DNA of 64,000 bases from NCBI GenBank assembly GCA_018398585.1, contig JAGTTD010000014.1, forward strand, positions 16,367,387 through 16,431,386, written 5' to 3'. The translations under genes and the position numbers were made by a program. Numbering within the stretch: position 1 is the first letter of the stretch; every line of letters begins with the position of its first letter. The notes below the pieces were generated by a model. It saw only the letters and a program-made list of their open reading frames with translations. It made no database searches and was not told where the DNA came from. This document shows positions 2,017-54,002 of this stretch, piece after piece. Source of the stretch: Simmondsia chinensis (Eukaryota; Streptophyta; Magnoliopsida; Caryophyllales; Simmondsiaceae).

Positions 2017-2800
2017 GGCTCGAGTGGTGCAATGTCCATTGTTCTACCTTTTTGGATGGAGGAAGTCTATAAGTCCTAGGAAGGAGATCCTTTTGCTCAA
2101 GAGTGTGTGACAGCAAGTCCGATAAAAAATGCAGAAAAGGATGACAATGCTGCTGAAATATCAGTGCAGAGAGGCATCATCAAGGTGTAGAATAGACTCT
2201 ACACTGGTTCAGCAACAGATTTGACAAACTTCAGAGTTGATTCAGCTTGGGGAGGACATGCTGGTATAGCGGGCACTTATTGAAGAATTAAAGCCTATTT
2301 CAGCTGGCCAGGCATGAAGAAGTCCGTGAGTGAGTATGTCAAGGCATGTGAAGTTTGTCAACAAACTAAATTGGGGGATCATAGGTACAAGGGACTTCTT
2401 CAGCCACTTCCCATTCCGGATGGAGCTTGGATCAACATTAGCATGGATTTCATAGAGCGTTTGCCTAAGTCTGATAGCAGGGAAGTCATATAGGTTGTGG
2501 TGGATCGTTTCACCAAGTATAACCACTTCATTTAACTCATACGGCCTGTTACAGCTGAGAAGTTGGCTAAGATATTCCTTGACAACATATATAAGTTACA
2601 TGGATTGCCTCAATCCGTTATCTCTGATTGGGATAAGATCTTCACAAGCAATTTTTGGAGGGAGTTGTTCAAGTTGTTGGGTACTACATTGGAACTTAGC
2701 TCACCTTATCATCCCTAAACAGAAGGAAAATCGAGCGTGCTAACCAATGTATAGAGAAGTACCTTCGGAGCATGGTTTTCTCACATCCTAAGGAGTGGAA
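2017..2800 (+). pseudogene. Z: integrase N-terminal and core part, interrupted by B
   Basis: Translated remnants show the zinc-binding region (WGGHAGIAGTY, then KACEVCQQTKLGD), the first catalytic aspartate region (INISMDFIE), FTKYNHF, and LPQSVISDWDKIFTS around the second aspartate. Several stops break it (for example inside the VDRFTKY and YHPxTEG regions). At 2800 the text is cut by the LTR of element B, with the 5-bp duplication TGGAA at 2796-2800. Integrase would have inserted cDNA into chromosomal DNA. Confidence 0.85.
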
Positions 2801-3232
2801 TGCTACAAATTAATAAATTTCACTTGTACTACATTTAATTTCTTAGTATTATTTTGTATTAGAGTCTATATGATGTAACACAACTTAAAATAGCACCGGT
2901 TAAAATAATTGTAAGCAAAATATCAGCACAAATATCTGCAGTGCACACGAAAAGCACTGTGCTGAATTAGTTGCTGATGTTTTGGCGGGAATGACAGTTA
3001 CAGGCAAGGAATGAGTGGGATTTTCAGCTGGGAATTTCCTGACCTAATTCTGTGTAAAAATTGAGAGCTTAATGTGCATTTTTGATCATCCAATGAAATG
3101 AAATCTTATTCCTAAGGGAAATTCTCTAATTCTCATCTCCTTTCTCTATTTTCTCATCCCCTTCACTTCTTTTCTCATCTCAAACTCTCTTCTACAAGGT
3201 TAGATTTCCAAAATAATTTTGGGAAGCTAAAA
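2801..3232 (+). repeat. B 5' LTR
   Basis: It starts TGCTAC and ends in GCTAAAA (GCTAACA in the partner copy). It matches 6707-7138 along its full length. It contains a run of TCTCATC-type pyrimidine motifs before the end, as do the LTRs of the other families here. The TATAAAT found in the 3' copy is AAAAAT here, so the promoter of this copy looks damaged. Confidence 0.92.
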
Positions 3233-3234
3233 AT

Positions 3235-3246
3235 TGGTATCAGAGC
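3235..3246 (+). other. B primer binding site (initiator tRNA-Met)
   Basis: The sequence TGGTATCAGAGC two bases after the LTR is the standard complement of the 3' end of plant initiator tRNA-Met and would prime minus-strand synthesis. Confidence 0.9.
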
Positions 3247-3319
3247 TGGTTTAACAATCACTTAATTAATTAAGCTAGCAACAAGATCAGAAAAACAAAA
3301 AAAAAAAAAAAAAAATTTC

Positions 3320-4677
3320 ATGGCCGAAGGAGTTAGAACCAGATCGGGAGTTGGTGGAGCAAATGCAACAGGTTCCAATATGGATTTTGTTGTGGCTGTC
3401 ACTGGAAATCCCACGGCTGGACCTCAAAATGCTACTAAGGAAGATCTTCTTAAGATGCAACAAGGATTTAATTAGAGAATGGATCAAATTTTGGCATTGT
3501 TGATGGACAAAGATGCTAAAGATGTCAAAGTGCAAGACCAATTGCAACAAATTGAGGAAAAACTTGAACACTTGCAAGATCAAGTTAACAAACAAGGTGA
3601 CTTAAGTGTTAAGGCCATCCTCAAACCCGCAAGTCAGACTCACCAAGCAGCTGAAGTCGATCAGCAGCACACAAGTACCGAACAGCAGCAAGTCAGCATG
3701 GACAGATCTCAAGGAGGAATGCACACTCGAGGTAAATCTCCGATGTTGCAACCTGGTGTAGGACCATCAATTAACATTAGATCAGCTGCAAATCAACCAA
3801 TTCGACCTGAAATTAATGTAGGAAATAAAGATCGAGCTTTTGGACCTGTTAATTACCGAACCTATGCTGAAAATTCAGAACAGAACAACAGGCCATATGT
3901 TTCTGTTATGCATCAGAACGTTGCAGATGAGGTGTTTGATCATATTGATAGACCTCCTGATCAACCATATCAGCATAGAACCATGACCAATGACAACACA
4001 ATTGGGGGTAGGAGTGGCTCTTCCAGGCAGCCAAGGGTAGAAATAGATCCATTTGATGGAAAGCAACTGGAATCTTGGCTTAGGAGGTGTGATTGATACT
4101 TTTATATTACAATATACCTGAGGGGGAGAACCGCCAGATAGCCGCAGTCCATCTTCATGGTGATCATGAGGTTTTGTACTATAGTTTGTTGAAAAGCAAA
4201 CCGAATCTTTCTTGGGACCTTTTCGTAGAAGAGATGTGTGAACGATATGGTGAAGGAGAATCCACGGATGTTGTGGATAACTTCAACAAGTTAGTCCGAA
4301 CATCAAGTGTGAAAGAATACATGCTTAGATTTGAGAATTTGAGAGCAAATTTGATGTCAGTTCTAGCCATTGCTCCTGAGGATGCCGAATCCTACTATGT
4401 TTCTTGCTTTGTGAGTGGCCTTAAGCCTAGGATCAAAAATATGGTTAAAGCTATTGGTCCTAAGACTTTGTCAAGTGCTTATAACAAGGCAAAGTTGATA
4501 GAAGCAACTCAAGTTCCCTCAAACGACAAGCCAAAGCATCATGACAGCAGGTCCGAAGTTCTACAACAGAGTAAAGGGTCCGGCAGTAAGCAAAACATCG
4601 ACAGAAGTTCGGTAAGGCTTTGTTTTCGTTGCAACCAGCCTTACTAGCCCGGGCATAGGTGCAAATCACAAGCACTT
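3320..4677 (+). pseudogene. B: gag (N-terminus, capsid and zinc knuckle)
   Basis: The start ATG at 3320 gives MAEGVRTRSGVGG, matching the gag start of H (MAEGVRTRLG). An in-frame TAG at 3473-3475 separates it from the coiled-coil, glutamine-rich region starting at 3479. A conserved block (QPRVEIDPFDGKQ, SWLRRCD) leads into the capsid-like part after a stop and frameshift at about 4093-4096. The capsid part includes DHEVLYYSLLK, CERYGEGESTDVV, EYMLRFENLRAN, SGLKPRIKNMVKA and SSAYNKAKLIEA. The zinc knuckle C-F-R-C-N-Q-P-Y then GHRC near 4618-4665 contains a TAG at 4645. Gag would form the particle and bind RNA. Confidence 0.88.
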
Positions 4678-5323
4678 ATGTATGCAAAAGATAGTCGAGT
4701 TCCGGATGAAGCTGACAGTACCGAATCTGATGCAGATTTGGAGGAGACCGAATGTAATTTACAAGGCAACTCAAGTGATGACGAGGTCGAGATCTCCATT
4801 AAGGCTCTAATCGGAAGTGGGGCTCATAACACAATCAAAATCGAGGGACAGGTTGGAAAACACTCCATTATTATTCTTGTTGATAGTGGAAGCGCTCACA
4901 GTTTCATTGACCCAAAGTTGATTAAGAAGGTCAAACACGAAGTGATAAAAACTCATCCTTTGGCGGTCATGGTAGCTGATGGAAATTCTTTAACAACTAA
5001 AGACAAATGGATAGCCTTCCCTTGGTCTATGCAAGGTCATCATTTCACTTTTGATTTTCAAGTGATCCCTTTTGGGTGGTCGTGACATGGTGCTCGGAGT
5101 AGATTGGATGAGGACCTTCAACCCGGTTGTCTTTGATTTTGAGAAAATGATCGTGGCCTTTGAAGTCCAAGGCATCAAAGTATCTTTGCAAGGCATGTTC
5201 GAGGAAGCTCAACTCAAGTTGATGGTTGGGAAACATGGGCAAGGTGGAATCAAGAAGAAGGCAATACAATGGCTTGGTCATTTATTCATGATTAGTCCGG
5301 TAGAGTTGCAGCAAGACCTTTAA
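4678..5323 (+). pseudogene. B: aspartic protease
   Basis: The acidic linker (DDEVEISIK) is followed by the active site LVDSGSAHSF (D-S-G near residues 69-71 of the frame starting 4678), then [22 protein letters not shown] and IQWLGHLFMI. A frameshift lies near 5080, so the first half ends at 5085 and the second is open from 5072 to a TAA at 5321-5323. The reading frame continues past that TAA directly into the accessory region, with only the first residues of the usual pre-RT linker (PEVQALL) kept. Confidence 0.88.
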
Positions 5324-5329
5324 CCAGAA

Positions 5330-6700
5330 GTGCAGGCTTTATTGGATGCATTTGGGGACAATTGGGTGCAGCCAAGGAGGTCTGATGGTCAACAAGAGCT
5401 AACTCAAGATGTTGCTCTTACTATGGTATACGCTGATATACCAGATCCAGATGTCTGTGATGGTGTACATGGGTCGCTTACTGCAAAAGTTGTGATCCCA
5501 ACAAAAAAAATTGATGTTACCTTTGTAATATCATTGAAAACGTCACCAAATCAGTTAAGTGATATTCCTTGGCAAGCTGGAATGATGAACCAAGGTATTT
5601 TCACTGCTGAGCATTGTCTTGCAGTTCCAAAACCACTTGTTGAGGCTACATAATCAACAAATTCAGATCACTGTATACTCAAGTCCACCTTTGGGAATGC
5701 TGGAAAGTTGATTCAGGTCCAGAACATCCCCAACGTAGAGGCTTTACAAGGTCTCTTATGTTGGGTAAAGAATCATGAACATACAGTGGCTGAAAGGCAC
5801 CATCGGTATGCCGATTGGCAAGATCGGAATGATTTATTTCCTCATTTGATGGAAGTTGTGAGTGCAAATTCTTGTAAGGAGCCTCGTACTGACTCGAAAG
5901 AGGTAGATCATGCTTATAACAAGCTGCAACTCGAGGCTATGTCGGAGAAAATGTTAAATCCAGCTGCCAAGTCTTGCTTCTCTGTTCAGCAGAGATAAAA
6001 TTTCATTTCTGGGCAAGCTGGAGCACTAACTCAGGACCAAAACCACATCATCTTGGTGGCTTTGCAAGGTTCCTTGAGTGGAGTAAGTTGTTATGCAGGT
6101 ATAATGGCAAAAATGCACTATCGGCATGCCGATCGGCAGGTTCAGAATGGTTTATTCTTTTATTTGGGGAGCATTATGACTTATTCCAATGCAAAATCAA
6201 GTGTTAAGTCGCCTCCTGGGCCAAGAGAAGATTTTCAGGTTGATTTGAAGCCAAAACAAGTCAAATTTCTGCAGAAGAAGTTAAATCAAGTTGCTAATAT
6301 TTGCTTCCAAGACCAACTGAGTCCAGAACTCAATTCGAGTATAACGCTTGAGTTTGGTTTTGTTATTGCTGATAAATCCTTAAAGCTTTTTGGAATCAAG
6401 CATCCCAGGAAGAATTTTGAGGACCTTATGATAACACATTGCAATTTGGAGGACATTTCTACTGGGTCGTTGGCCATCCAAGTCATGAGCAAAGCTAAAA
6501 CTGCTAGATCACATAAAGTCATGCTGCTGCAACCGGATTCAGTCAGATCAAAGAAGATGCTGCAGTTCATCAACAAGAAGGTTCAAGAGGTGCTAGTCAA
6601 TTGGGGCAACTTAAACTTTACAAACATGGGAGGACTACAACTTCTTGAAGAGCCTATTTCCGAGCTTTACTTCTTGAGGACAAGAAGCTTCTCAAGAGGG
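5330..6700 (+). pseudogene. B: accessory reading frame in place of RT/RNase H/integrase
   Basis: I do not recognise this protein. It begins in frame with the protease (PEVQALLDAFGDNWVQP), then departs from the gypsy sequence at about 5370 and reads QQELTQDVALTMVYADI, EISLKTSP-like text and IPWQAGMMNQG. The same text occurs in element A (QQGLTREAALTVMYAGI, SIVPWQGYMQN). Two copies of a module follow (about 5715-5996 and 6050-6330), each with RHxxADxQxxNxLF and a K-rich stretch ending NPAAKSCFSVQQR or similar. Next comes FVIADKSLKLFGIKHP, the counterpart of FDPSKDGLNVLG in T. Stops at 5651, 5996 and frameshifts break it. It ends at LRTRSFSRGREC just before the polypurine tract. Confidence 0.7.
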
Positions 6701-6706
6701 AGGGAA
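6694..6706 (+). other. B polypurine tract
   Basis: A purine run AAGAGGGAGGGAA ends exactly at the 3' LTR start. It would be the plus-strand primer. Confidence 0.85.
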
Positions 6707-7138
6707 TGTTGCAAATTAATAAATTTCACTTGTAATACATTTAATTTCTTAGTATTATTTTGTATTAGAGTCTACATGATGTAACACAACTTAAAATAGC
6801 ACCGGTTAAAATAATTGTAAGCAAAATATCAGCACAAATATCTGTAGTGCACACGAAAAGCACTATGCTGAATTAGTTGCTGATGTTTTGGTGGGAATGA
6901 TAGTTACAAGCAGGGAATGAGTGGGATTTTCAGCTGGGAATTTCCTGACCTAATTCTGTGTATAAATTGAGAGCCTTATGTGCATTTTTGATCATCCAAT
7001 GAAATGAAATCTTATTCCTAAGGGAAACTCTCTAATTCACATCTCCTTTCTCTATTTTCTCATCCCCTTCACTTCTTTTCTCATCTCAAACTCTCTTCTA
7101 CAAGGTTAGATTTCCGAATTAATTTTGGGAAGCTAACA
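6707..7138 (+). repeat. B 3' LTR
   Basis: This is 432 bp, TGTTGC to GCTAACA, the partner of 2801-3232. TATAAAT at 6961-6967 is a plausible TATA box. It is followed by the second target duplication copy TGTAA. Confidence 0.92.
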
Positions 7139-7262
7139 TGTAACCGTTGGCTTTCTCTAGCTGAATATTGGTTCAACACTCAAGAACATGCATCTATTGG
7201 CACTACTCCTTTCCAAGCACTATATGAATATGCTCCTTCTACTCCATTTATGTTGCAGAGTT
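7139..7262 (+). pseudogene. Z: remainder of integrase core after B
   Basis: Directly after the B insertion the same integrase resumes with WLSLAEYWFNT, then ASIGTTPFQALYEYAP and FMLQ. It begins with the second copy of the target duplication (TGTAA at 7139-7143, one mismatch to TGGAA). The homology stops near 7262, where the opposite-strand element C takes over, so the integrase C-terminal chromodomain region is missing. Confidence 0.85.
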
Positions 7263-8460
7263 GCATCAAATGAGGAACACTCATCTGGAGGTCTTCCAAG
7301 TATAAAAATCTGCTTGTAAACATTCCCAAGCGCTGCTAAAACAACCCTATATCTAAACCATATCAGACCAAGCTCAATAAACACTTGATTTTTTTCCAAT
7401 TCCACATGATGTGCTGCAAACTTCAAAAATTCAGCAATGTTAAACCGATACACCACATAGTTGCGAATATGACAGATTTCAGCTCGATTCTTGTCCATAT
7501 GGAAGCTTCTTGATGCGAAAAAGTTAATATATCTTCCCAAATCCATAATAGCACCAATCACACTCCATTTGAACAACTCATTTACTGCTGATAGTGAAGG
7601 AATTGTAATTCTCTAAGCCTTTTCAACAGCTACCTTGAATTTTGTAGTAAACATCTTGAATTGGAACTTAAGTAATCTAGGAATCTCAGCTTCTTCTCTC
7701 AAAATTCTTGCACAGATTACACCATAAGCTCCCATTCTTTGATCTTGGCAAAGCTGAGGGAGGATGCACCAAAAATTAAGAGTACATTGCTGTCCAATCA
7801 TGATCATTAGAGCACTTGTGACTTTGGCTTGAAAATTTGGACCTTTGCTCCCCCAAATTAAGTACTCATAGGTCACAATTGAATTCCAAGAACACAAGGT
7901 CTTCACTTGAATTCTCAAAGCAACCCAATTGACATATTTAATTCTGCAACTTTCATTTTTCAGATGGTTCGCAAATCTTTCAGCTTTTATTTGGACCATC
8001 TTCAACTTTCTGCATTCAAATAGGTTGCTGCAGCTATCTCCTTCAAAAACAACATGAATTCTCAGCTTTTCCAGCCACCAATCTTGCTCTAAGTGAGCTG
8101 GCATTGAATTCCCAATAGATTCAATTTCCTGGCTGAACTGCTCAATTTTAACCTTTGAATGTGCCCCATTCATCAAGTACTGCACTTTCACTTTAAACTC
8201 AGGAGGTCTCACATTTGGTTGCCCTAATGGAGCATGTTCTTTGCCCATAGCTTGATTATTGCACAATCTGAATTTGGAGCTCAATGCACTTGCCTCATTA
8301 CTGTCCAGCATTGTCATTCCAGCCCAAATGCAGAACCCAGATTCGATCAACACTTCAGGGGGTCTTCCCATATTAAACATAACCCAAAGTCCTTTAATTC
8401 TTGCAGATGTTGGCTGATCAAACTTAATTCTCTAATCAGTACCCATCTTGTGAGCTTCTA
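7263..8460 (-). pseudogene. C: accessory frame, C-terminal part
   Basis: Minus-strand frames 8380-7613 and 7576-7263 share blocks with element A. Examples are SIVTYEYLIWGSKGPNFQAK (A: SMVTYECLFFWAKG, SEAKVTSAQLIKMGQQ), VIGAIMDLGRYINFFASRSFHMDKNRAEIC (A: VIGAIMTLGRCHNLFTSSCFYMDINRAAIC) and VELEKNQVFIEL. Two copies of a GRPPE/GRPPD motif occur (about 8360 and 7275). Function unknown; the length and the shared order show it was once a single protein. A stop near 7610 and frameshifts break it. The apparent C-terminal residues past 7262 are antisense of Z and are not part of the protein. Confidence 0.68.
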
Positions 8461-8497
8461 ATATGTCAAGATTTCTTCCAGAAATCAAGTTAAGCAT

Positions 8498-9109
8498 CTA
8501 CCGAATCTCCTTGGCAGTTGGATTGACTCTTTTCTCCCACTTAGCCTCATGTTCCAGCTTGCTATGATCTTGATCTACCTTTCCTGGATCAGGGGGAAGC
8601 TGAGCATAAGAGGTTGCAGCCTGAAGTACCCTTCTTTCAGCGTAAGAACCATGCCAAACATCCACTGTACTGCAATTGGTCTGAACAAAATTTTGCTTCA
8701 GCACATTACTGAATTTGTACACCTCCATCAACTCAATTGCTTGTACAGAAACAGCGCTTCGCCTTTGTTGAACCTTAAAACACACTTTGGCAGCTTGGTT
8801 ACTTCATTTCAACAAAGAATCAACTCTTTTTAGCTTCACAAAACCTTGAGTATAATCTCCCAGATCAGAAGCCAATTTGTCATGGAAGTTTGTATTTGAA
8901 TGCACCATTTCTCCACTGCAAGAACCTTGCAATGCGTCAAGTACACTGCTGCCAGCATAGTTCAGAAGCTGGTTTTGATTATCAAGTTGCCTTGGAGAAG
9001 TGCTTAACACGCTTTGTGGTGGTATCATTGTTACTACAGCAGTAACATCAACTTTCACAGTTGAATTCAGATGTTCTATTATATCCGACCCTTGTATAAT
9101 AGCATACAT
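8498..9109 (-). pseudogene. C: accessory frame, repeated-module region
   Basis: Two minus-strand stretches carry the repeated module. The first is 9109-8804 (NFHDKLASDLGD, KLKRVDSLLK), continuing after a stop into CFKVQQRRSAVSVQAIELMEVYKFSNVLKQ. The second copy is AQLPPDPGKVDQDHSKLEHEAKWEKRVNPTAKEIR (ends near 8498). Element A has the matching DKLPPDLGEDFQ, KPKRFDSLLKRTNQAA and FKVQRRRSNVVEQAIELLNVYN. No known domain is recognised. Confidence 0.65.
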
Positions 9110-9845
9110 TGGTAAAATTAGGAGCCTGAGTTAGTTCTTGTTGCCTAACTTCTTCCATTGGGCCAACCCGATGTCCCTTACTTGATTTGGACTCAATTAC
9201 AGCAACTAACGGTTGTCCGTTATTATGTTCTTGCAAACTCTCAAGCACCTTAGGCTGAAACACAAACTCATGCCTCAATTTCTGCTTTGTCAACTTCTTT
9301 TTACCCCAAAAACCTTTCAATGCTTCATTTAGATGGTTCCTCTTTACTTTACTCCTTGCTTTCTTTATTATACCCTTGACATATGAATCATATTCCCATT
9401 CCGAAAGCATACCTTGCTGTAGCTCATCATCTTCAAAATACTCTAACTCTTGCAAAGAGTCTTCATAATGATCAACTTGTTCAACTTGAGATTCCTCTAA
9501 CTTGTGTTCATCAATTTCGGCATTACCGTGGCCTAACTCATCTTCAACGGCAACAGATTCCACTCTAATCTTCTCTTTTTGCTTAGCATTGAACTCTTGT
9601 TGTATAACGCCATCCATTAACTCAGGGAACTCATTTGCATCCAGAACACCAGCACCATCTCGATTGATGATTACAAACTGATGAGCTGAATCTTGCTGAT
9701 CTACAATTTGCTGCAGCACTCGGTCCATTGCCAGTTTCAATTCCTGCCACAACTTCTCGCGTTCTTGTCTACATTCTTGCCTCCATTTCTCCCAAATATC
9801 ACTCATCATAGATCGACAAGAGCCATCATCATCCATACCAGCCAT
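9048..9845 (-). CDS. C: accessory frame, N-terminal part (acidic + basic region)
   Basis: The frame is open from 9914; I prefer the ATG at 9843-9845 (MAGMDDDG) because element T starts its protein at an equivalent place before a W-rich segment. The segment IWEKWRQECRQEREKLWQELKLAM is followed by an acidic stretch (EIDEHKLEESQVEQVDHYEDSLQELE). Then comes a basic block (YVKGIIKKARSKVKRN, GKKKLTKQKLRH). Element A matches it almost position for position (EIDEHELEEPEFEQDDSYEESMRELE, VRGMIKKAKSKSKRN, GKKKLSK). The basic block could be a nuclear localisation or nucleic-acid contact, by inference only. The frame drifts out near 9110. Confidence 0.65.
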   Translation of the reverse strand: MAGMDDDGSCRSMMSDIWEKWRQECRQEREKLWQELKLAMDRVLQQIVDQQDSAHQFVIINRDGAGVLDANEFPELMDGVIQQEFNAKQKEKIRVESVAVEDELGHGNAEIDEHKLEESQVEQVDHYEDSLQELEYFEDDELQQGMLSEWEYDSYVKGIIKKARSKVKRNHLNEALKGFWGKKKLTKQKLRHEFVFQPKVLESLQEHNNGQPLVAVIESKSSKGHRVGPMEEVRQQELTQAPNFTNVCYYTRVGYNRTSEFNCES

Positions 9846-10900
9846 ATTTGCAATGTTAAACAGCGTTTCAATATGAACCAACTCAGTTTTCAGAAATCTG
9901 AGTTCGAGGAACAATTTCGATTCGAATCACTTCAACAGATGATTGCGTAAAGAAATTATACTCCTTCGCTTACAAAAACAATCACTTGCTAATAGCTCCT
10001 CATTCGTTTTTGAATAAGAACCCTAATTTGTAGAATTTTCGCCACATAGAGAGCTCGAACAAACCCTAACTGCGATGTTTCTTGAGTAACCAGACTTACA
10101 ATTCTGAATTAGGCTCGACTCTAGATCGCAATAAATTCCTTAACACAATACTCAAGGCAATCTTCAAGAACGAAATCAGATTTCAACACTTTCGGTTCTC
10201 AGTTCAATGTCAGATTCCCGTCTAAGCAAATCTCAACTCAATAACATATAATTCTTAAGAATCAACTGAATTCTCACCACTTCTGTGCTTCACTCCTCAA
10301 TTGAATGTCAGAACCAGAAACTACTTCAATCAGTTTGTTTTTCTGATCTTTTGATTATTATCAAGTGTAATGTTGATCCAATAGCTCACTTAAGCTTCTT
10401 TTCCAAAAGATCAAGTGAATATTTGGTCAATTTTGATTATGCTTCAGCACTCAACTTTAGCAGCTAATGCTTGATCAATGCTACTGAATCCAATCTGATA
10501 CAATGCACACCAGCTCTTCTAGCTTGAATTCAGATTTGAATTCCTGATCAGTCAACAACAATAACAACAACAGTCTCAGTGCCTTGCGGCTCCTGCAAAA
10601 GCAAGGTCTGGGAGGAGTGGATGCACGCAGCCTTACCCCTTCCGAGTGGAAAGGAGGCTGTTTCCGAGGACCCCCAACCTGAAGAAATTCTTGATCACTC
10701 AAACTGAACCAAAATCAGCACCAAAAACTTGTTTGTGTTGATTAATTGTAACTAGCACCAAAGCTTGATACAATACAAACTAAATTTAGTTAAATTTGAT
10801 TCAACTAAATCAATTACAAGCATCCAAGTCTCTTGTGCAGCACAACAACTAGATTTTAAATTTGTTTCTTGATTATGAGCTCGCTTGGAAGCCAAACCTG
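9846..10900 (-). other. C leader between primer site and accessory frame
   Basis: About 1 kb without a supported reading frame, AT-rich, with repeated TTGATCAA-like and CAATTTTGA-like words. Element A has a leader of similar length (38304-39352). It could hold the packaging signal. It contains the SINE at 10556-10687. Confidence 0.6.
10556..10687 (-). mobile_element. SINE (5'-truncated) in the leader of C
   Basis: Read on the minus strand it has GGGGTCCTCGGAAACAGCCTCC, GGTAAGGCTGCGTGCATCC and a TTG-rich tail, as in the copy at 53874-54002. It is flanked by imperfect 15-bp duplications at 10541-10555 and 10688-10702 (about 13 of 15 match). The tRNA-like head with A and B boxes is not present. 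Confidence 0.75.
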
Positions 10901-10912
10901 GCTCTAATACCA
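10901..10912 (-). other. C primer binding site, variant
   Basis: The minus strand reads TGGTATTAGAGC, one base different from the usual TGGTATCAGAGC. Element A has exactly the same variant. Confidence 0.8.
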
Positions 10913-10914
10913 AT

Positions 10915-11304
10915 TTTCATGTCTCGAACCAATCTCGGATCATGAACTAGGATAAAAGAGAGTTAGATGAGAAGAGAAGTGAAAGGAGATGAGAATTAGA
11001 GGAAGAGTTAGATAAGAGAAAGAGTAATATCAAAAAATATTTTGTATTTGATTAAATGCATTGCTTATTACACTTGATCACTACTTATAGGCCATCTAGT
11101 ACATTGGACTCAGACGTCACAACTAACCAACTCAACTAAACAAAATATCTAACTAATACTAAAATATCTAGCTAACTAACATGGCCTATTGGCACCAACA
11201 TACGCTGCACTCCTAACATAATTGCAGCCAGCAACCGAAACCCATCAGACACCTCAGCAACACAGCCACCCCCAGCTCACGCCTTGGATTCCCGAGTCAT
11301 AACA
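10915..11304 (-). repeat. C 5' LTR
   Basis: On the minus strand it begins TGTTATGACTCGGGAATCC, close to the LTR starts of A (TGTTATGATCCGAGAATCC) and T (TGTTATGACCCGGGAGTCC). It carries the same TCTCATCT-rich pyrimidine segment in its 3' half. The downstream boundary beside the primer site is uncertain by a few bases. No partner LTR exists in the window. Confidence 0.75.
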
Positions 11305-18021: not shown

Positions 18022-18883
18022 TGTTATGCTCGGGATTGAATCACAAGCATAAACTAAGTAAATTGAAGATAGATGAGAGTATGAGATGAGAAAGAAGTGA
18101 ATTGAGATGAGAAATAGAAGAGTTAGATGAGACAAAGAAGGTTTGATCTCAAAAGAGACATTTGTCTGATATTTTCATTGAATAAAAGGAACATACCAAG
18201 GGCTCCCGCCTACGCAGGGTCGGGGGGGGGGGGGGGGGGGGGGCGGATGTACGCAGTCTTCCCCCTTCAGGGTGTTAACCTGAAGAGAGGCTATTTCCCA
18301 GTGCCCCTAACCTAAGGGTGAGGACTTCCCAGGAGGTCACCCATCCTGATACTACTCTCGCCCAAGCACGCTTAACTTCGGAGTTCTAATGGGATCCAGT
18401 GACGGCGTGTTGGTGCCCTCTTTGGTGATATTTTCATTGAATGAATCCTGAAAAATACAATTGACTACTACTTATAGGCAAACTAAGCAAGCAATACAAT
18501 GAACCTAGTCCAAACTACTAGCTAACCTCAGCTAGAAAAATATCTAATTCTAACTAAAATATCTGACTAACATTTAAGCCACTAATTGGTGCCAAAACAA
18601 CCAACTAACAGCAATAACCAAACCTAACCGTTCCTTGCTAATGCAGGCTTATTATAATGCAGTTACTACGACCCTTACAATGCAGCTAAGGAAAGCAATA
18701 AACCAAGCTATTACATCACTTACTAAACTAATCAACAACTAATCAGCATTATAACAGCAACGGCAGCCACGAACAGCAAAAACAGAAAAATGCAGCAGCA
18801 CCATAGCAACATAACAGCAACTAAAACGTAGCTCATTAGTAATAGCACCCCCCTTAGATCCTCATCAAGCTCGGATCATAACA
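18022..18883 (-). repeat. F 3' LTR (contains a SINE)
   Basis: The plus strand runs from TGTTATGCTCGGG to GGATCATAACA. Without the SINE and one copy of its duplication it is about 603 bp, the same as its partner 45333-45935. It carries the TCTCATCT-rich segment (GAGATGAGAAA on this strand) shared with the other families. Confidence 0.9.
18184..18425 (-). mobile_element. SINE with 5S-rRNA-derived head
   Basis: It is bounded by perfect 17-bp duplications TGATATTTTCATTGAAT at 18167-18183 and 18426-18442. On the minus strand it starts with about 100 bp closely resembling plant 5S rRNA (GGATCCCATTAGAACTCCG, AGTTAAGCGTGCTTGGGCG, GGATGGGTGACCTCCTGGG). This is followed by a SINE body (GGGAAATAGCCTCTCTTC, GGAAGACTGCGTACATCC) similar to the SINEs at 10556 and 53874. 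It contains a run of 22 G on the plus strand (18222-18243). The long duplication indicates target-primed insertion, not an rRNA gene or an LTR. Confidence 0.82.
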
Positions 18884-18899
18884 TTCCCTTCCCCTTGAA
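18884..18899 (-). other. F polypurine tract
   Basis: The minus strand reads a purine run ending AAGGGGAAGGGAA next to the 3' LTR. Confidence 0.85.
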
Positions 18900-31949: not shown

Positions 31950-32987
31950 TTACCTCAAATCCAGCTTTGAAAAGAAACACGTCCCATATAGTTCATCAAG
32001 CAAATCATCTATGATCGGGATGGGAAACTTATCCTTCACCGTGAGAGCATTTAACCGGCGGTAGTCGATACACGTCCTAGCCGAGCCATCTTTCTTCTTC
32101 ACAAGGATCACGGGTGAAGCGAAAGGACTATGGATTGGTCTAATGAAGCTCACATTAAGAAGTTCCTCCACTTGACTTTCTATTTTTGACTTTTGGCCGT
32201 GTGCATAACGATAAGGCCTAATCTTTACCAGATCAGCGTTTGCATGCAAAGGGATGGCATGGTCCACACTCCTTGGAGGAGGAAGACTCTTAGGTGGCTC
32301 AAAGATGTCACCAAATTCATTCACTAAGGCTTGCACTTCTGGTTGAAGTCCCGGCTGCAGCTCAACCGATGCTATCATGAACAAATGACCTATCCATTGT
32401 ATCGCCTTCTTCTTGATCCCATCGTGCACACGTTTGCCATCAATAATCTTGAGTTGAGCGTCCTCTATCATGCCTTTCAAGGGCACTTTGGTGCCACGAA
32501 CCTCGAATGCCATGGTCATCTTATCGAAATCAAACGCAACCGGGTTGAAGGTCCTCATCCAATCCACCCCTAGCACCATGTCGCAACCGCCCAAAGGAAG
32601 AACTCGGAAATCAAAGGTCAAACTATGATCTTGCATAGACCAAGGAAATGCTATGCACTTGTTGTGAATGGTTAAAGAATTGCCATCAGCCACCATCACT
32701 TGCAAAGGGTGAGTCTTTATCGTTTCATGTCTAGCCTTCTTACTCAGCTTGGGATCGATGAAGCCATGTGTACTCCCGCTATCAATGAGGATTATGATGG
32801 AATGTTTGCCAACCTTGCCTCTGATTTTGATAGTGTTATGAGCTCCACTACTGGTTAACGCCTTCATTGATATCTCCACTTCATCCTCACTCACTTCTTC
32901 TTGTGAAACATCACTAAAACTGTCATTTTCTGCAGCCGATTGCTCACTGCCTGATTCAGCATCAACACGGGTCCCTTTAGCACACAT
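31950..32987 (-). pseudogene. I: aspartic protease and RT first half
   Basis: 345 open codons. The acidic linker ([21 protein letters not shown]) precedes protease D-S-G at residues 69-71 and [22 protein letters not shown]. Next come the linker ([16 protein letters not shown]) and RT start ([37 protein letters not shown] with the catalytic aspartate), ending at a nonsense codon one residue later. Upstream, stops at the zinc knuckle (about 33000-33020) separate it from gag. Confidence 0.9.
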
Positions 32988-33049
32988 TATTGGCTATGAT
33001 TTGCACCTGTGTCCTGGCTAATATGGCTGGTTACAATGATAGCAAAGCC

Positions 33050-33511
33050 TCACCGAGCTTCTGTCAACAACACGTTGAATCCTGCACCAGAACCTGCACC
33101 TGCACCAGCACCTGTTCTCGGTTGTGATCTGAATCTGCTGCCTGGATGCTTAAACTTGTCACTCGGTTGAACATGAGTGGCTTCAATCCATTTTTCCTTG
33201 TTATAAGCGCTTGACAAGGTCTTAGGACCAATGGCTTTCACCATGTTCTTGATCCTAAGCTTTAATCCACTTATAAAGCAAGACACATAATATGATTCGA
33301 CATCCTCGGGAGCTATAGTCGAAACAGAGAGCAAGTTGGCCCTTAGGTTCTCAAATCTAAGCATGTACTCACTCACGGTTGAAGTTCGTGATAGTTTGTT
33401 AAAATTACCCACAATGTCCGTTGATTCCCCTTGTCCATAACGTTCGCACATTTCCTCTATGAATTGGCCCCAAGATAGACTCGGTTGCTCTTCAACAAAC
33501 TGTAATACCAC
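33050..33511 (-). pseudogene. I: gag capsid part
   Basis: LSWGQFIEEMCERYGQGESTDIVGNFNKL, EYMLRFENLRANLLSV, SGLKLRIKNMVKAIGPKTLSSAYNKEK, then a glycine/alanine repeat (GAGAGAGSGAG). It is shifted in frame relative to the upstream gag part near 33480-33511. The zinc knuckle follows at about 33000-33050 in another frame with a stop. Confidence 0.86.
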
Positions 33512-33972
33512 ACCTCGTGATCGCCATGGAGATGCAATGTAGCTAATTGGAGCTTCTCCTCATCCGGTATGTTGTAATACACGAAATACCGGTCACACCT
33601 CCTCAGCCACGATTCCGGTAACTTGCCATCAAAAGGATCAATTTCGACCCTTGGTTGCCTGTAATGTCCGCTCCTACCACCAGATGTCATGTCATTACTC
33701 ATGGTTCTATGCTGATAAGGTCGATCAGGAGGTTTGTCCAAATGATCGAGCTCATCAAAGTCATCGCTGCGATGCAGAACTGAATTCTGTGGTGGCCTGC
33801 AGTTGCGGTTGAGATTCGAAGGTTCAGGTCTGTAATGTGTCGGCTCCGGGACCCGATTCTGATTGTCAACAACAAATTCTTGTGGCAAAGGTTGATATGC
33901 CGCTGATCTGATATTAATTGAAGGTGTTGCAGTCGCCTGATCAGACGGAGATTTGCCACGATCCCTCACCAA
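33457..33972 (-). pseudogene. I: gag middle part
   Basis: PSINIRSAAYQPLPQEFVVDNQ, RPYQHRTMSND, QPRVEIDPFDGKLPESWLRRCDRYFVYYNIPDEEK and LHLHGDHEVWYYSLLKSN are close to the B gag. Frameshift at its end. Confidence 0.86.
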
Positions 33973-34124
33973 GGTCTCAGTTCTGTTATCAGGTTCTTGC
34001 TACTGATCGAACTCTTTTTGCTGAAAAATCTGACTTACCAGCTTCAAGATTGCCTCAACGCTTGATTCACCTCATTTATCAACCTGTTCTTGCAATTTTC
34101 AACCTTCTCCTCAATTTTTTGCAA

Positions 34125-34418
34125 TCATGACTCTTTATTCATCATCAAGTTCAACATTTTCTGAATGCTGTCATGTTGTTTTTCAAACTTCAATTCGAAG
34201 TTCGCATTTTGCTGATCAACCTTCGCATTTTGCTGATCAATCTTCGTATCCAACTTTGCGTTCAATTGTTCGATCTTGTCATTCAACTCTCGAAGGTGAT
34301 CAGATGATACATTCACAACAGAATCTGTCACTGCCACAGCAATATTCATTTCTGAACCAGGTGCATTGTTAACTCCAGCTCCCGATCTTGTCCTTACTCC
34401 ACCAGACATACTTCGCAC
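34125..34418 (-). pseudogene. I: gag N-terminus with coiled coil
   Basis: MRSMSGGVRTRSGAGVNN leads into SDHLRELNDKIEQLNAKLDTKIDQQNAKVDQQNA, a heptad-like coiled coil with a repeated QNAKVDQQNA unit. The same start and coiled coil (DHLRELNDKFEQWNAKFELQ) occur in element A in front of its accessory frame. It is separated from the next gag part by stops at about 34000-34120. Confidence 0.85.
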
Positions 34419-37700: not shown

Positions 37701-38289
37701 TGTTATGATCCGAGAATCCAAGGCATGAACCCGGGGTGGCTGTGATGATATCCTGCTGCTATGCTGCGGCCGTTGCTATTACAGGGGCTGTTTTGAGGTT
37801 GTTAGCTACGGTGTTACTGCTGATAGGCTGCTGCAGTTGTTCTAGGTTGCTATTAGATTGATGATTAGCTTAATAAAGATGTTATAGCATTAGTTAGCTT
37901 GGCATTAGTGGTTGCATTGTACTATAATAAGCATGCGTGTAAATAGCCTGCAGTGAGCTAGGCTGTTAGTTTTGCTGCAGGTAGTTAGGCTGTCACATTT
38001 GTCTTGGTGCCAAATATGATTTAAATGTTAGTTAAGCGTTAGTTCTAGATATTCCTAGATACTTCCTAAGTTGGTTAGTCCTTGGGTGGCTAGATTCAAT
38101 GTATTAGGTTCATATTATGTAAGTAGTATAAATAAGAGGTGCTAGCATGTAATCCAGAACTTTTCGATGAATGAATTGATCATCTCTTTTCCCTTCTTCC
38201 TCATCTAAACTATATATTCTTTCTCATCTCATACTCTCTCTATCCCAACCAAGGTTAAGGTTCAAGACATAATCTTCGAAACCTTAACA
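37701..38289 (+). repeat. A 5' LTR
   Basis: TGTTATGATCCGAGAATCC to ACCTTAACA. It lacks about 27 bp (a TCTCTATTTTCTCATC-type segment) present in the 3' copy. TATAAATA near 38127 could be its TATA box. Confidence 0.92.
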
Positions 38290-38291
38290 AT

Positions 38292-38303
38292 TGGTATTAG
38301 AGC
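38292..38303 (+). other. A primer binding site, variant
   Basis: TGGTATTAGAGC, the same single-base variant as element C. Confidence 0.85.
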
Positions 38304-39352
38304 CTTGATTTGGCTTCCGAATCAAGCTCATATCCAAAAAATTATAAAATTTGATTAATTATGTTGTAATTAATCAACAAAAAAAGGTTTGGAACTGATT
38401 TAATTCAGATTTTGTGATCAGAATTCAAATCTAAATTTTGAAATTATTTTTGGCGGTTACTGCACTAGTGATCAGCAAGGCCTGGGATGTTGCTTTCGGT
38501 TGGGAATTAAAGTGATCAAATTACATTGAAGAAAGTTCAATTGATCAGTATTTTTTGATTACATTCAACATCAAGCTGATTCCGATTGAAATTTAGTAGG
38601 ATCGATCAAGCTTCAGCTGCTAGTTGAGTGTTGAGCAAAGCTTTAGTTGTTGAAGTTGAGCTGAATTGTTCTTGATCAATCATTCATGTGATGGGTTGGA
38701 GAAGAAGTTAAGGTAAGCTCATTGATCGACATTACACTAGATCATCGTCGAGAGATTAGAAATCATCTGAATTGAGGTAATTACAGATTTTACAATTCAG
38801 AAGTTGAGATTGAGGTAATGGTTTTTTTATCTTCAAGTTGCAATTCGTTAAGAAATTGTGGTTGTTGTTGAATTGTGATGAAATTGTGTTGATAAGCTTA
38901 GAAGTGGCGAGAATTCATCGGAATCTTGGGTGATTTTGGAGAATTATACGTTGTTGAGTCGGGATTTGCTTAGGCGGAAAATCTGACAGTAAAGGCGAAT
39001 TTTTGACAATGAACCTAACACCGAAGGTGTCGTATTCCGCTATTGTTCTTGAAGATTGTTGTGTTTCGTGTGTTTAAATCATCACTATAGATAGAAATCG
39101 AACCAATTTCAGAGTTTTAGTCCGAATTATTCAAGAAAGCATCACTGTTAGAAGCTTGTTCGAAGTTAGGGTTTGTTCGCAATTTTGCAAGATAGGAAAT
39201 ACAATCAGTGTCGATTGTGGAACCGTTAGCAAGTCATTGTTTGTGCGAACTAAGGAGTAGAACTTCATTAAGCAATAGATTGTGGAAGAGTTGCAAAACG
39301 AGTTTCACACTTCTGCGAGTTTCGAACGAAGTTGTGGTTGTTCATTACAAAC
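38304..39352 (+). other. A leader
   Basis: About 1.05 kb without a supported frame, rich in TTGATCA and TTGAAG words, similar in position and length to the leader of C. A role in packaging or dimerisation is possible by analogy only. Confidence 0.6.
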
Positions 39353-39601
39353 ATGGTCGATGGAGTAAGGACCAGATCAGGAGCAAAGGTATCAGCTGCG
39401 GTGACAGGTTCTGGTACTGATGCATCAATTGATCACCTCCGGGAGTTGAATGACAAGTTTGAACAGTGGAATGCTAAGTTTGAACTGCAAAGAATTGAGA
39501 GTAAGCACCAGCTTGACAGCATTCAGCAAATGTTGAAGAAGCTTTTGGGTAAGGATGCGAATAAGGAAGATTGGGTGCAACAAATTGAGCCTTATAGCTA
39601 G
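39353..39601 (+). pseudogene. A: gag N-terminus (coiled coil) joined to accessory frame
   Basis: ATG at 39353: MVDGVRTRSGAKVSAAV, then DHLRELNDKFEQWNAKFELQRI, KHQLDSIQQMLKKLLGKD. This matches the gag N-terminus of element I (GGVRTRSGAG, DHLRELNDKIEQLNAKL). After about 80 codons it meets TAG (39599-39601), but the same frame continues directly into the accessory protein at 39620. The gag capsid is therefore replaced, not just lost. A coiled coil could let this protein co-assemble with Gag of an autonomous relative (inference). Confidence 0.75.
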
Positions 39602-39619
39602 ATTACTCCACCTACTGAA

Positions 39620-40255
39620 GTGGATTTACCGCAGGAGTTCATTGTTGAGAAAAAAGAGAAGGTACAATCTGTTGTCGTTGGAGGTGAACTCATCCCCGAT
39701 AGTGCCGAAATTGATGAACATGAGTTAGAAGAACCTGAGTTTGAACAAGATGATTCTTATGAAGAATCTATGAGAGAGTTAGAGTCTCTTGATGATGGAG
39801 AGATACAATATGACGTGCATCTGGATGGGGAATATGATTCACATGTCCGAGGAATGATTAAGAAAGCAAAGAGTAAGTCGAAGAGAAATCGTCTAAGTGA
39901 AGCATTGGGAGATGTTGTGGGTAAAAAGAAGTTGTCCAAGCCAAAAATGAAACGTGTGGTTGTGGTTCAACCTAGTACGCTTGATGATCAACAGGGGTTA
40001 ACTCGAGAGGCTGCTCTTACCGTTATGTATGCGGGAATACAAGAATTAGTTGTAGTAGAATATGGGACTCCAACTAGGGAACTTGACGCCATTGCTGAAA
40101 TATCATTGAAAACATCTCCACACTCGTTAAGTATTGTCCCTTGGCAAGGTTATATGCAGAATCGAAGCTCTTTTGCTGCTGAGCAATATCATTTAGCTAA
40201 GGATTCCTTTGTTGCGGTTGCAGTCCCTCTTCAAGCAGATGAGGGCATGTCTTAA
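39620..40255 (+). CDS. A: accessory protein, N-terminal part
   Basis: 211 open codons in the same frame as the gag N-terminus. The order is FIVEKKEKVQSVVVGGEL, an acidic stretch (EIDEHELEEPEFEQDDSYEESMRELESLDDGE), a basic block (VRGMIKKAKSKSKRNRLSEAL, GKKKLSKPKMKR), then QQGLTREAALTVMYAGIQE, EISLKTSPHSLSIVPWQGYMQN. C matches the acidic and basic blocks; B matches the last part. I recognise no family. The spacing of acidic and basic segments is conserved between copies, which suggests past constraint on the protein. The start is internal; the natural start is probably 39353. Confidence 0.65.
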   Translation: MDLPQEFIVEKKEKVQSVVVGGELIPDSAEIDEHELEEPEFEQDDSYEESMRELESLDDGEIQYDVHLDGEYDSHVRGMIKKAKSKSKRNRLSEALGDVVGKKKLSKPKMKRVVVVQPSTLDDQQGLTREAALTVMYAGIQELVVVEYGTPTRELDAIAEISLKTSPHSLSIVPWQGYMQNRSSFAAEQYHLAKDSFVAVAVPLQADEGMS

Positions 40256-40347
40256 AATCTCATTCCAGAAGTAGAAATTGCCGTGAGACCGCATGAGCTT
40301 CCAAATGAGGTATATTTGAACAAGTCTTATGATCTCATGAAGGACAA

Positions 40348-41856
40348 GTGACGTTGGCCATGCTTGTGATGGTTAATCCTCAAGTGCACCTTCAAACAGA
40401 TGGTGTTAGTCCTCCAGATTCAATTCCAAAAGCTGATATGCATTTTCGGCATGCCGATTGGCAAGTTCAAAATGATTTATTCCTTTTTGTGAGTGGAGTT
40501 ATGACTTATCCAAGTGCAAGTTCTTATGATAAGTTGCCTCCTGATCTGGGAGAAGATTTCCAATTTTATATGAAGCCGAAAAGGTTTGATTCTCTGTTGA
40601 AAAGAACTAATCAAGCTGCGAGAGCGCGTTTCAAAGTCCAACGAAGGAGAAGCAATGTGGTTGAACAAGCAATTGAGTTGCTAAATGTGTATAACTGCTG
40701 TAACTTGCTGAAACCGATTTCAGATCCGTCTAGAAGCTGTCCAGCAGATGTTTTAACGGATGTGTTGGGTGTTGGAAGCTTCGTTGATCCAAGAAAGAAT
40801 GAATTACAAGTATTTGGAGGAGCTTCACACCCGGTGCTTCTGTTTGATGTTGAAAATGGCGTTGACAGTGCAAGCATTGGTGTAAAAGTGGTTGAGGCTA
40901 TGGGTCATTGCGAAGTTGTCATCAAAGTACGTTGTGGAGACAGGAATAACACATTTTACAAGCTGCACTATACTCGTGACAATGAAGTGATGTATGGTGG
41001 ATGGTCTGAACAAATGTGGGGCTGCTGGTATGATTTCACAACTGGTGGGCGACGCCAAGTAAGGACCAAGTTGATAGCATTGGAAAATAAGAATCAACAG
41101 CAACTGAAGCTCCCTAATTCGGTGCAGCATCTAAATGTGTGTGGAGTGGTCTGTTGTGATTGCTCCGAATGGAAAAATACTATGCACAAGCTCCAATACT
41201 TTCTCAACATATGGATGAAGGAGTACAACAAGAAAACAAGATCGTTTCTAGCGGAAAACATTCAACACTTTAGCAGTAAAGATCGGGACAGATTTTCCCA
41301 TGTTCAGAAATTAATCTCAGTAACATTGGAGTGCCATTTGCGTATTGATCTGTTATTCATTTTCAAGTCTGATGACAGGAACTCAATGGTGACCTATGAG
41401 TGCTTATTTTTTTGGGCCAAAGGTTTAGAATCTGAAGCCAAAGTCACAAGTGCTCAATTGATCAAGATGGGACAGCAAGGATGTAAGATAATGGCTGAAA
41501 ATTCTGGAAGCGTTACAATGCTTTCATTGACAACTGTAAATAAGATGCTCAAGGGCGATGTGATTGGTGCTATCATGACCCTGGGAAGATGTCATAACTT
41601 GTTCACTTCAAGTTGCTTCTATATGGACATAAACCGAGCTGCAATTTGTTATTATGAGTTGCATCAGGTCAGCACTACTGACTTCTTGAGTTCTGCAGCA
41701 ACTTGGGTGCAATTGGAAAGCAATCAAGAATTTGTTAAGCATGTCATGAGTTGGTTTAGTATGTGGTTGTGTGGGCAATACAAATATTGGATCAGATCCA
41801 AGATGAAAGAATTTAGTATGTGTGTGGCTTCCATGATCAAGACAAGTGATTGTTAG
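40348..41856 (+). CDS. A: accessory protein, main part (502 codons)
   Basis: The longest accessory frame. It contains the module MHFRHADWQVQNDLFLF, KLPPDLGEDFQFYMKPKRFDSLLKRTNQAARARFKVQRRRS and VVEQAIELLNVYNCCNLLKP. Then follow SFVDPRKNELQVFGGASHP and a cysteine/tryptophan-rich middle (VRCGDRNNTFYKLHYTRDNE, WSEQMWGCWYD). Next come LRIDLLFIFKSDDRNSMVTYECLFFWAKG, VIGAIMTLGRCHNLFTSSCFYMDINRAAICYYE, and an end at TAG 41854. It is one frame away from the N-terminal part (shift between 40255 and 40348). B, C and T carry parts in the same order. No known catalytic motif is seen; not a reverse transcriptase or integrase. Confidence 0.62.
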   Translation: MTLAMLVMVNPQVHLQTDGVSPPDSIPKADMHFRHADWQVQNDLFLFVSGVMTYPSASSYDKLPPDLGEDFQFYMKPKRFDSLLKRTNQAARARFKVQRRRSNVVEQAIELLNVYNCCNLLKPISDPSRSCPADVLTDVLGVGSFVDPRKNELQVFGGASHPVLLFDVENGVDSASIGVKVVEAMGHCEVVIKVRCGDRNNTFYKLHYTRDNEVMYGGWSEQMWGCWYDFTTGGRRQVRTKLIALENKNQQQLKLPNSVQHLNVCGVVCCDCSEWKNTMHKLQYFLNIWMKEYNKKTRSFLAENIQHFSSKDRDRFSHVQKLISVTLECHLRIDLLFIFKSDDRNSMVTYECLFFWAKGLESEAKVTSAQLIKMGQQGCKIMAENSGSVTMLSLTTVNKMLKGDVIGAIMTLGRCHNLFTSSCFYMDINRAAICYYELHQVSTTDFLSSAATWVQLESNQEFVKHVMSWFSMWLCGQYKYWIRSKMKEFSMCVASMIKTSDC

Positions 41857-42304
41857 AGCTGCGTTTGGGAATGTCTTTAAGCTGAATTCAGTAATTGGTT
41901 CTTTTGGTTTGAGTTTGGAAGTCCTCCTGAGATGCTCAATGACTTCATATGTAGTTTAATGGGGCTAAAGATATACAAAATCAGTTACGCAGCTTACTAC
42001 ATGCAGAAAAACAGAATTGTTGCTGCATTTGGGGATTTTTAGCAGCAAGAGTGGGTTTTGAGCTGTGTTAACTGCATCAAGAGGAGTTGGGAATGTGTTG
42101 GTGATGTTTGGTTTGATCGTAGCAGACCTCCTGAAGAGCATTATGCACTCAAACGCAGACAGTGCATCGAGATAGATTGAGGTGTTCATTGGTCATTCCT
42201 GCTGCAGATTTCAGCAAAACATCATCACTTCAGCCCTTTCCTTATGCAACTATAGTTCTTCATTGTTACAGCTCCCTTCTATTCTTGCGGACAAGAATGT
42301 TTTC
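41857..42304 (+). pseudogene. A: eroded C-terminus of the accessory protein
   Basis: Past the stop, pieces such as FGSPPEMLNDFICSLMGLKIYKISYAAYYMQKNRIVAAFGDF and SWECVGDVWFDRSRPPEEHYALK are readable across stops and shifts. The SPPE/RPPE motif also occurs twice in C and once in T (CRPPEQIS). The protein was therefore longer, with at least two PPE repeats. LRTRMFSRGREC follows just before the polypurine tract. Confidence 0.5.
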
Positions 42305-42317
42305 AAGGGGAAGGGAA
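42305..42317 (+). other. A polypurine tract
   Basis: AAGGGGAAGGGAA directly before the 3' LTR. Confidence 0.88.
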
Positions 42318-42933
42318 TGTTATGATCCGACAATCCGAGGCATGAACCCGAGTTGGTTGTGATAATATCCTGCTGCTATGCTGCTGCTGTTGCTGCTGCA
42401 GGGGCTGTTTTGAGGTTGTTAGCTACGGTGTTACTGCTGATAGGCCGCTGCGGTTATTCTCGGTTGCTATTAGATTGATGATTAGCTCAATAAAGATGTT
42501 ATAGCATTAGTTAGCTTGGGATTAGTGGTTGCATTGTATTGTAATAAGCATGCGTGTAAATAGCCTGCAGTGAGCTAGGCTGTTATTTTTGCTGTAGGTA
42601 ATTAGGCTGTTACATTTGTCTTGGCTCCAAATGTGCTTTAAATGTTAGTTAAGCCTTAGTTCTAGATATTTCTAGATACTTCCTAAGTTGGTTAGTCCTT
42701 GGGTGGCTAGATTCAATGTATTGGGCTCATAATATGTAAGTAGTATAAATAAGAGGTACTAGCATGTAATCCAGAACTTTTTGATGAATGAATTGATCTC
42801 ATTTGATTTCTCTCTCTATTTTCTCATCTCTTTTCCCTTCTTCCTCATCTAAACTCTATATTCTTTCTCATCTCATACTCTCTCTATCCCAACCAAGGTT
42901 ACGGTTCAAGACCTAATCTTTGAAACCTTAACA
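42318..42933 (+). repeat. A 3' LTR
   Basis: TGTTATGATCCGACAATCC to ACCTTAACA, 616 bp, followed by ACCTC. Confidence 0.92.
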
Positions 42934-45935: not shown

Positions 45936-46010
45936 TAAGGGTGGAAAGGGGTGGTACCGATGTGGTCGGGCGATAGTGGTGGTAAGGGGGGTGGTACCGG
46001 TGGCGTGGTG
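45936..46010. repeat. GGTGG minisatellite, right part
   Basis: The array at 17826-18021 continues here (GGTACCGATGTGGTCGGGCG, AGTGGTGGTAAGG) on the far side of F. Confidence 0.7.
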
Positions 46011-53873: not shown

Positions 53874-54002
53874 GCTTCAAGTTGGGGATCCTCGGAAACA
53901 GCCTCTCTTCCATCCGAACGGGGGAAGGCTACATACACCCCCCCAGACTCTACTTATCACAGGAGCCATTGTGACACTGGGACTGTTGTTGTTGCTGCTG
54001 AT
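53874..54002 (+). mobile_element. SINE (5'-truncated)
   Basis: Perfect 13-bp duplications TCTTTGATAAATT at 53861-53873 and 54003-54015. The body has GGGGATCCTCGGAAACAGCC, GGGGGAAGGCTACATACACC and a tail TGTTGTTGTTGCTGCTG. Same family body as 10556-10687. Confidence 0.85.

Follow-up and report, generated by a model that had tools for sequence, protein, structure and literature searches.

The 64,000-nucleotide stretch of DNA analysed here (the window; C6:16367387-16431386 of the 831 Mb Simmondsia chinensis genome) holds a nest of LTR retrotransposons. The original prediction singled out three elements, A, B and C, and an array, T, as lacking reverse transcriptase (RT), RNase H and integrase and as sharing an unrecognised protein in place of pol. 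Their parts, and those of H, which stands for the presumed helper chromoviruses, are as follows (positions in the window).

2801-7138, plus strand: element B, whole; LTRs 2801-3232 and 6707-7138, 95.4% identical; target-site duplication (TSD) TGGAA/TGTAA
3320-5379, plus strand: B gag and protease, colinear with autonomous elements
5390-6502, plus strand: accessory segment of B, standing where RT-RNase H-integrase would be; the HADxQ module occurs in it twice
6503-6690, plus strand: B stretch common to the 3' end of autonomous elements; putative chromodomain remnant, by eye
7263-11304, minus strand: element C; 5' LTR about 10915-11304, PBS 10897-10914, leader, accessory frames 9914-7263
32306-34409, minus strand: element H, chromovirus; Gag start, gag, protease and the beginning of RT
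37701-42933, plus strand: element A, whole; LTRs 37701-38289 and 42318-42933, 93.5% identical; TSD ACCTC on both sides
39353-39598, plus strand: A Gag-derived N-terminus, about 80 codons, then an in-frame stop
39620-40252, plus strand: A1, acidic and then basic part of the accessory protein
40348-41853, plus strand: A2, 502-codon open stretch of the accessory protein, in a frame different from that of A1
41854-42300, plus strand: A C-terminal part with RPPE motifs, interrupted by stops and extending to the PPT region
54924-63245, minus strand: array T; four LTRs and three internal units of about 2.5 kb, with TSD AAACA around the whole array
55719-56846, minus strand: accessory-like frame of T unit 3 (stops read as X)
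58674-59387, minus strand: open frame of T unit 2, 238 codons
60843-61936, minus strand: frames of T unit 1, with a frameshift near 61727

B had been placed at 5330-6700, but the true element runs from LTR to LTR and the shared protein spans only about 5390-6500 of it, because B retains gag, protease and an apparent chromodomain remnant (at 6503-6690 Pfam gave no chromodomain match). The two copies of its TSD differ at one base, and it sits inside the integrase gene of another chromovirus, which, judged against another copy, breaks off at 2798 and continues from 7144. No 3' LTR was found for C, which is broken against a neighbouring integrase fragment; the integrase match at 7142-7279 belongs to the adjoining element and not to C. 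The C leader resembles that of A. A short sequence common to 10563-10689 and 53870-53993 has the appearance, by eye, of a tRNA-type SINE, one copy lying within the C leader. Elsewhere, at 18187-18425 (minus strand) and inside an LTR, there is an insert of about 239 bp that is headed by a 5S rRNA-like sequence (Rfam, 71.1 bits), has a tail resembling, by eye, that of a SINE, is flanked by a duplication, TTCAATGAAAATATCA, and looks like a 5S-derived SINE. A nested minus-strand element at 45936-18022 has its LTR pair at 45333-45936 and 18022-18884; nested insertions break up its interior, which seems to contain gag and protease but, ahead of the PPT, no RT, and is in that sense TR-GAG-like. At 46829-48451 lies a satellite-like array whose unit measures about 112 bp.

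The frames ascribed to these elements do exist. Those of A (507 codons, the longest of 1,000 Markov resamplings having 178), C (272 against 169) and unit 2 of T (239 against 181) are more open than any resampling; by the same procedure, the 234 open codons of B have p 0.001, the 147 of T unit 1 p 0.006 and the 126 of T unit 3 p 0.026. As had also been claimed, no RT, RNase H or integrase, which an autonomous Ty3 chromovirus carries between its LTRs, was found inside A, B, C or T by gag/pol scan. The scan returned nothing in A and T, gag and protease in B, and in C only the boundary match of its neighbour. To say that the shared protein replaces pol is accurate for B-type copies only; the A and C types are without gag capsid and protease as well. 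Among 65 A-type genomic loci (some overlapping or repeating an element), gag/pol matches occur in six, always in flanks: in L061, L062 and L064 they are outside the LTR pair, save for an overlap of at most 30 bases at the edges, and in L002, L012 and L019 they start 541-635 bases past the start of the 3' LTR. Since 60 of the 65 loci have only about 1.5 kb of flank on each side, rare pol-bearing variants could escape detection.

Genome searches gave 153 matches with A1 as the query (150 of 2,777 first-look candidates scored), 159 with A2 (85 of 3,950) and 150 with T (150 of 2,088); with the best candidates alone scored, these counts are lower bounds. In the A-type copies that could be delimited, the layout is LTR, leader, one long coding region, PPT and LTR, with target-site duplications. 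Copies L061-L064 measure 5.0-5.3 kb end to end and have LTR pairs that are 96.0-97.1% identical, with TSDs (in L062 the two sides differ at one base). In L065, unlike these four, the LTR-pair/TSD structure could not be delimited. The stop-free run extends over 891 codons in L062 and 921 in L065. (Close to both ends of the latter element, at L065:2399-3221 and 7782-8721, are tandem repeats whose unit is about 83 bp long.) Two LTRs, PBS, PPT and TSD, the marks of an LTR retrotransposon, are present in A, B, T and L061-L064. Across delimited elements the LTR pairs are 93-97% identical, which at a substitution rate taken as 1.3e-8 per site and year corresponds to an age of 1-3 My.

The blocks of A, B and C align well above chance. 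Blastp pairs A with C at 36% over 209 aa (E 6e-36), 34% (4e-22) and 42% (1e-19), and A with B at 41% (E 4e-15) and 50% (1e-16). Profiles built from 62 genomic loci and A (loci not dereplicated) find B at E 1.8e-23 and 2.6e-30 and C at 4.3e-54 and 1.5e-73, compared with a best value of 0.055 for shuffled controls (20 shuffles of each of six targets). The protein is modular, comprising an acidic stretch, a basic IKKAxSKxKRN/GKKKLxK part, a module with HADxQ, KLPPDLG and a basic helix (its second copy in B is recognised by blastp at E 2e-7), an FDPxK block and RPPE-type ends; in L062 the net charge is -13 and then +6 per 40 residues in the acidic and basic parts. The copy at C7:17697528 is a mosaic, with 86% identity to A2 over 1-214 and adjacent matches of 49% over 218-399 and 79% over 432-502. 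No significant relative of the accessory protein was found in Pfam, in a PDB sequence search or in a search of 5.8 billion proteins (queries of 211 and 502 residues). The last of these covers plant proteins, a PR-RT stretch used as control having returned 1,430 matches, but proteins of about 900 residues were filtered out, so that it does not speak to absence from other plants. Scans of viral and prokaryotic contigs for the accessory protein returned nothing, as did the RT control in the viral set, so that these scans carry little weight. Pfam matches to EutN, spore_II_R, VHS, NCOA6 and the like fell below the cut-off and were dismissed. Structure prediction from window sequences alone gave a pLDDT of 36.5 and is unusable.

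The shared-protein region of A (39353-42300) is accessory protein from 39620 on; its first 80 or so codons, which had been counted with the rest, are derived from Gag and match the Gag start of H at 34409-34110 (tblastn E 1.5e-13). The N-termini of L061, L062 and L063 likewise match the Gag start of H (1e-7, 7e-7 and 4e-10) and that of L065 the gag start of B (3.6e-15); the copies thus resemble different Gags. In all, a chromovirus Gag N-terminus opens the ORF in five of the seven N-termini tested, and those of C and T gave no match to Gag at E 0.01. The accessory elements have stretches at LTR edges, PBS/leader and PPT in common with chromovirus H and with the gag-protease element, and A, C and T have such stretches in common with one another. 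The chromoviruses of the window (G, H and I) have LTR edges, PBS/leader, PPT and Gag start in common with the accessory elements, which, in all those examined, differ from them in being without RT, RNase H and integrase.

B does not stand alone. The 501 bp across its gag-protease/accessory boundary were searched against the genome, and the best 40 of 1,970 first-look candidates were scored: 11 of them, counting B itself, span the junction at 86-100%, 10 match on the accessory side alone (starting at position 252-272) and 19 on the protease side alone (ending at 240-273). Most of the protease-only copies match B as far as 5379. B is therefore part of an amplified recombinant family with the layout gag-protease-accessory, which numbers at least 11 copies, and both parental sequence classes occur in the genome. 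A second kind of recombinant is L071, in which a T-type domain is joined in frame to the C-terminal half of an integrase (IN2, 72% over 183 aa) and a chromodomain-like end (the whole fusion at 239-1318). Recombination of this sort is expected when two RNAs share a particle, and the B family and L071 are most easily explained if the two RNAs met in one. (High-frequency recombination has been reported within a plant LTR family; PMC5668417.) From these recombinants, together with the common PBS/leader, PPT/LTR edges and Gag N-terminus, we infer that chromoviruses such as G, H and I would have mobilised the accessory elements in trans.

The place of T in the group is less straightforward. Compared directly with A, B and C (window sequences, pairwise and by profile) it gives nothing significant, the best E values being about 0.05-0.3. 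When the T profile was run against 128 accessory sequences and their reversals, forward sequences took 19 of the top 20 rows, with a best E of 0.07, but these rows are mutually related. Of eight divergent genomic relatives of T that were fetched, one, L073, is a T-family copy by its T profile (2.8e-93) and also matches the A2 profile at E 4.6e-15 in two domains. Domain 1 corresponds to A2 130-185, the FDPxK block (i-E 6e-4; residues 327-383), and domain 2 to A2 37-103 (i-E 3e-11); the score against A2 is 46.7 bits, the best of 2,000 shuffles reaching 8.8. L067 matches A2 weakly (8.2 bits, as high as one of 3,000 shuffles), and the other six offer nothing strong, L071 falling below its own shuffles. 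The suggestion that T is an independent non-autonomous family, whose likeness to A, B and C comes solely from recombinants such as L073, accordingly has to be taken seriously: the direct comparison is not significant, the strong match is confined to one relative in eight, and the modules of L073 stand in the opposite order to those of A (a common order of blocks, originally proposed, does not hold between these two). Against it, the T-profile match of L073 (hmm 217-304, residues 277-364) overlaps the match to A2 130-185, so that T's own FDPxK block, and not just an added module, is involved. We rate independence of T as a sizeable minority possibility; the tie of T to A, B and C through the FDPxK block and this single bridging copy appears to hold. 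The claim of a protein shared by all four thus stands on profiles for A, B and C, and for T only by way of L073; the IKKAxSK and RPPE matches in T remain unproven. Among the T copies of the window dN/dS is above 1, on few changes only. T-type matches also occur in rows with a spacing of about 2.5-2.8 kb at C3:11112503-11123262 and C9:10362357-10391435, resembling the T array at 54924-63245; tandem Cassandra arrays (PMC7215508) provide a published parallel.

Signs of selection on the protein were sought in its codons. Dereplication at 1% codon difference left 54 A1 arrays out of 64 and 53 A2 arrays out of 64 (at least 150 codons). Stops number 61 in 13,746 codons of A1 (727 and 1,648 in the shifted frames, a 12- to 27-fold depletion) and 146 in 25,305 codons of A2 (1,613 and 2,240; 11- to 15-fold); 21 copies of A1 and 5 of A2 are free of stops. 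The comparison of dN/dS between genomic copies, which the original prediction had proposed as a check, comes out on the side of constraint: for pairs more than 20% apart, NG86 dN/dS is 0.53 [0.50-0.57] in A1, against 0.72 and 0.89 in the shifted frames, and 0.66 [0.64-0.69] in A2, against 0.82 and 0.96. Among independent close pairs (less than 12%) the values (A1, 0.76 against 0.53 and 0.87; A2, 0.71 against 0.68 and 0.73) are about those of the shifted frames, so that constraint is invisible there. The pattern is the one left by source copies that are constrained and that, once inserted, decay neutrally. Pairs confined to the window give 0.44-0.68, apart from A and the 3' part of C, at 1.05. 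In 30-codon steps along the ORF, dN/dS (w) ranges from 0.42 to 2.04, the top value falling where synonymous changes are very few; A1 181-210 (w 0.95), A2 1-30 (w 2.04) and A2 541-570 (w 1.16) show no constraint on the protein. Synonymous divergence is low among otherwise distant copies at A1 181-210 (pS 0.14) and A2 1-60 (pS 0.06-0.20), which could reflect RNA-level constraint or mosaic sharing.

That these elements make up a non-autonomous LTR group with a conserved accessory gene, as first proposed, is supported by the LTR pairs and TSDs, the absence of pol, the depletion of stops and the fall of dN/dS with distance. We think it probable, though well short of certain, that they form an LTR lineage that relies on helpers, encodes a conserved modular protein of its own and is packaged together with chromoviruses. 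A, B, C and T would belong to a large and still fairly young set of Ty3-type elements, in which one long coding region begins with about 80 residues of chromovirus Gag (in A and the four genomic copies tested) and continues as the orphan modular protein. Chromoviruses such as G, H and I would supply capsid and enzymes, both RNAs presumably being packed in the same particle, and in the B family the cassette would have moved behind gag-protease, bypassing part of the dependence on helpers. Least certain are the guesses that the Gag-like N-terminus carries the accessory protein into the helper particle and that its charged acidic and basic parts aid packaging or nuclear return of the element's own RNA, through RNA binding; that the protein is a Gag-associated particle cofactor is also a guess, and the Gag N-terminus may instead be kept as an RNA signal rather than as protein. 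Past mobility, purifying selection on source copies and repeated recombination with chromoviruses can be read from the sequences themselves. What tells against the preferred explanation is that dN/dS of 0.53-0.66 is only moderate and that the shifted frames lie at 0.72-0.96 rather than at 1; the sub-regions that show no protein constraint, the 1.05 between A and the 3' part of C, and the Gag N-terminus that was not detected in C or T weigh on the same side.

One rival explanation holds that the ORF protein does little: leader and Gag start would be packaging/dimerisation signals, and the open frame would protect the RNA or help its packaging in cis. The region that the elements have in common with their helpers is indeed the 5' end, and the moderate dN/dS and the two stretches of low synonymous divergence suit this explanation, though mosaic sharing could also account for the latter. 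Yet amino-acid identity of about 34-53% persists in the A/B/C blocks, with dS at about 0.7-0.9 in four comparisons out of five, and among distant copies non-synonymous change is lowest in frame 0, which mere openness does not need. We consider it unlikely that the protein matters so little.

Slightly less likely still is that the protein is a fast-evolving Gag with its capsid past recognition, which would make the elements TR-GAGs. TR-GAGs are the closest known elements in anatomy, with their LTR pair, PBS, PPT, single ORF and lack of pol, and the Gag N-terminus at the head of most tested ORFs and a basic region that could bind RNA are as such a relationship would have it. In the elements described here, though, the resemblance to Gag ends after about 80 codons, the remainder being without significant Pfam or PDB match, so that the Gag with capsid domain of a TR-GAG is represented by its N-terminus only. 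Pfam recognises helper gag, protease, RT, RNase H and integrase, and each of three chromovirus gag stretches matches its Ty3_capsid or Retrotrans_gag family (best E 4.8e-14, 2.2e-8 and 1.6e-6); neither family was found in nine frames of the window or five genomic ORFs. No CCHC knuckle was seen by eye, and B has its accessory segment besides gag. (Movement without most element proteins is reported for one Arabidopsis copy; PMC8704663.) Very improbable, finally, is that the protein stems from a single capture of a host gene, which the elements would since have carried along passively and recombination would have shuffled, and that it plays no part in transposition; captured genes in LTR elements are known, and no similarity to known element proteins was found in the libraries searched, but retention under selection across divergent subfamilies has been long, and each query raised 2,088-3,950 first-look candidates.

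Returning to the helper-dependent lineage, other known systems share some of its properties. BARE-2 is a gag-defective parasite of BARE-1, of chimeric origin, that uses the capsid of its partner and retains pol; the accessory elements would be like it in borrowing a capsid and in being chimeric, and are unlike it in having a new ORF and no pol. LARDs and TRIMs are defined by non-coding interiors. The accessory elements resemble them in having no pol and, probably, in depending on helpers, but their interior is occupied by a conserved long coding region, stop-depleted 11- to 27-fold in frame 0. (Both are among the categories of non-autonomous LTR elements listed in PMC10552921.) The ORF0 of Retrosat2, RIRE3 and RIRE8 (PMC3485330) offers a precedent, being an orphan protein borne by plant Ty3 elements that evolves faster than pol. 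It lies upstream of the gag-pol ORF; the orphan protein described here either has no other large product beside it or takes the place of RT to integrase. No matching published element turned up in the literature searched, which does not prove unpublished status. We would put forward only tentatively, as possible but rather doubtful, that this is a previously undescribed coding kind of non-autonomous LTR element: a satellite-like lineage encoding a trans-acting protein of its own, which a borrowed Gag N-terminus would anchor to helper particles and which would pass between elements as a module. Such a lineage would hijack helper packaging and, as in the B family, occasionally regain gag-protease.

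The usual view of non-autonomous LTR elements is that they are non-coding passengers or donors of Gag. If a large, selected, modular orphan protein is real in helper-dependent elements, then such parasites would evolve machinery of their own. The presumed helper, the parasite, their recombinants and both parental classes are found in one genome, which makes this a testable system, and the in-frame exchange between parasite and helper bears on how new lineages of retroelements may gain their genes.
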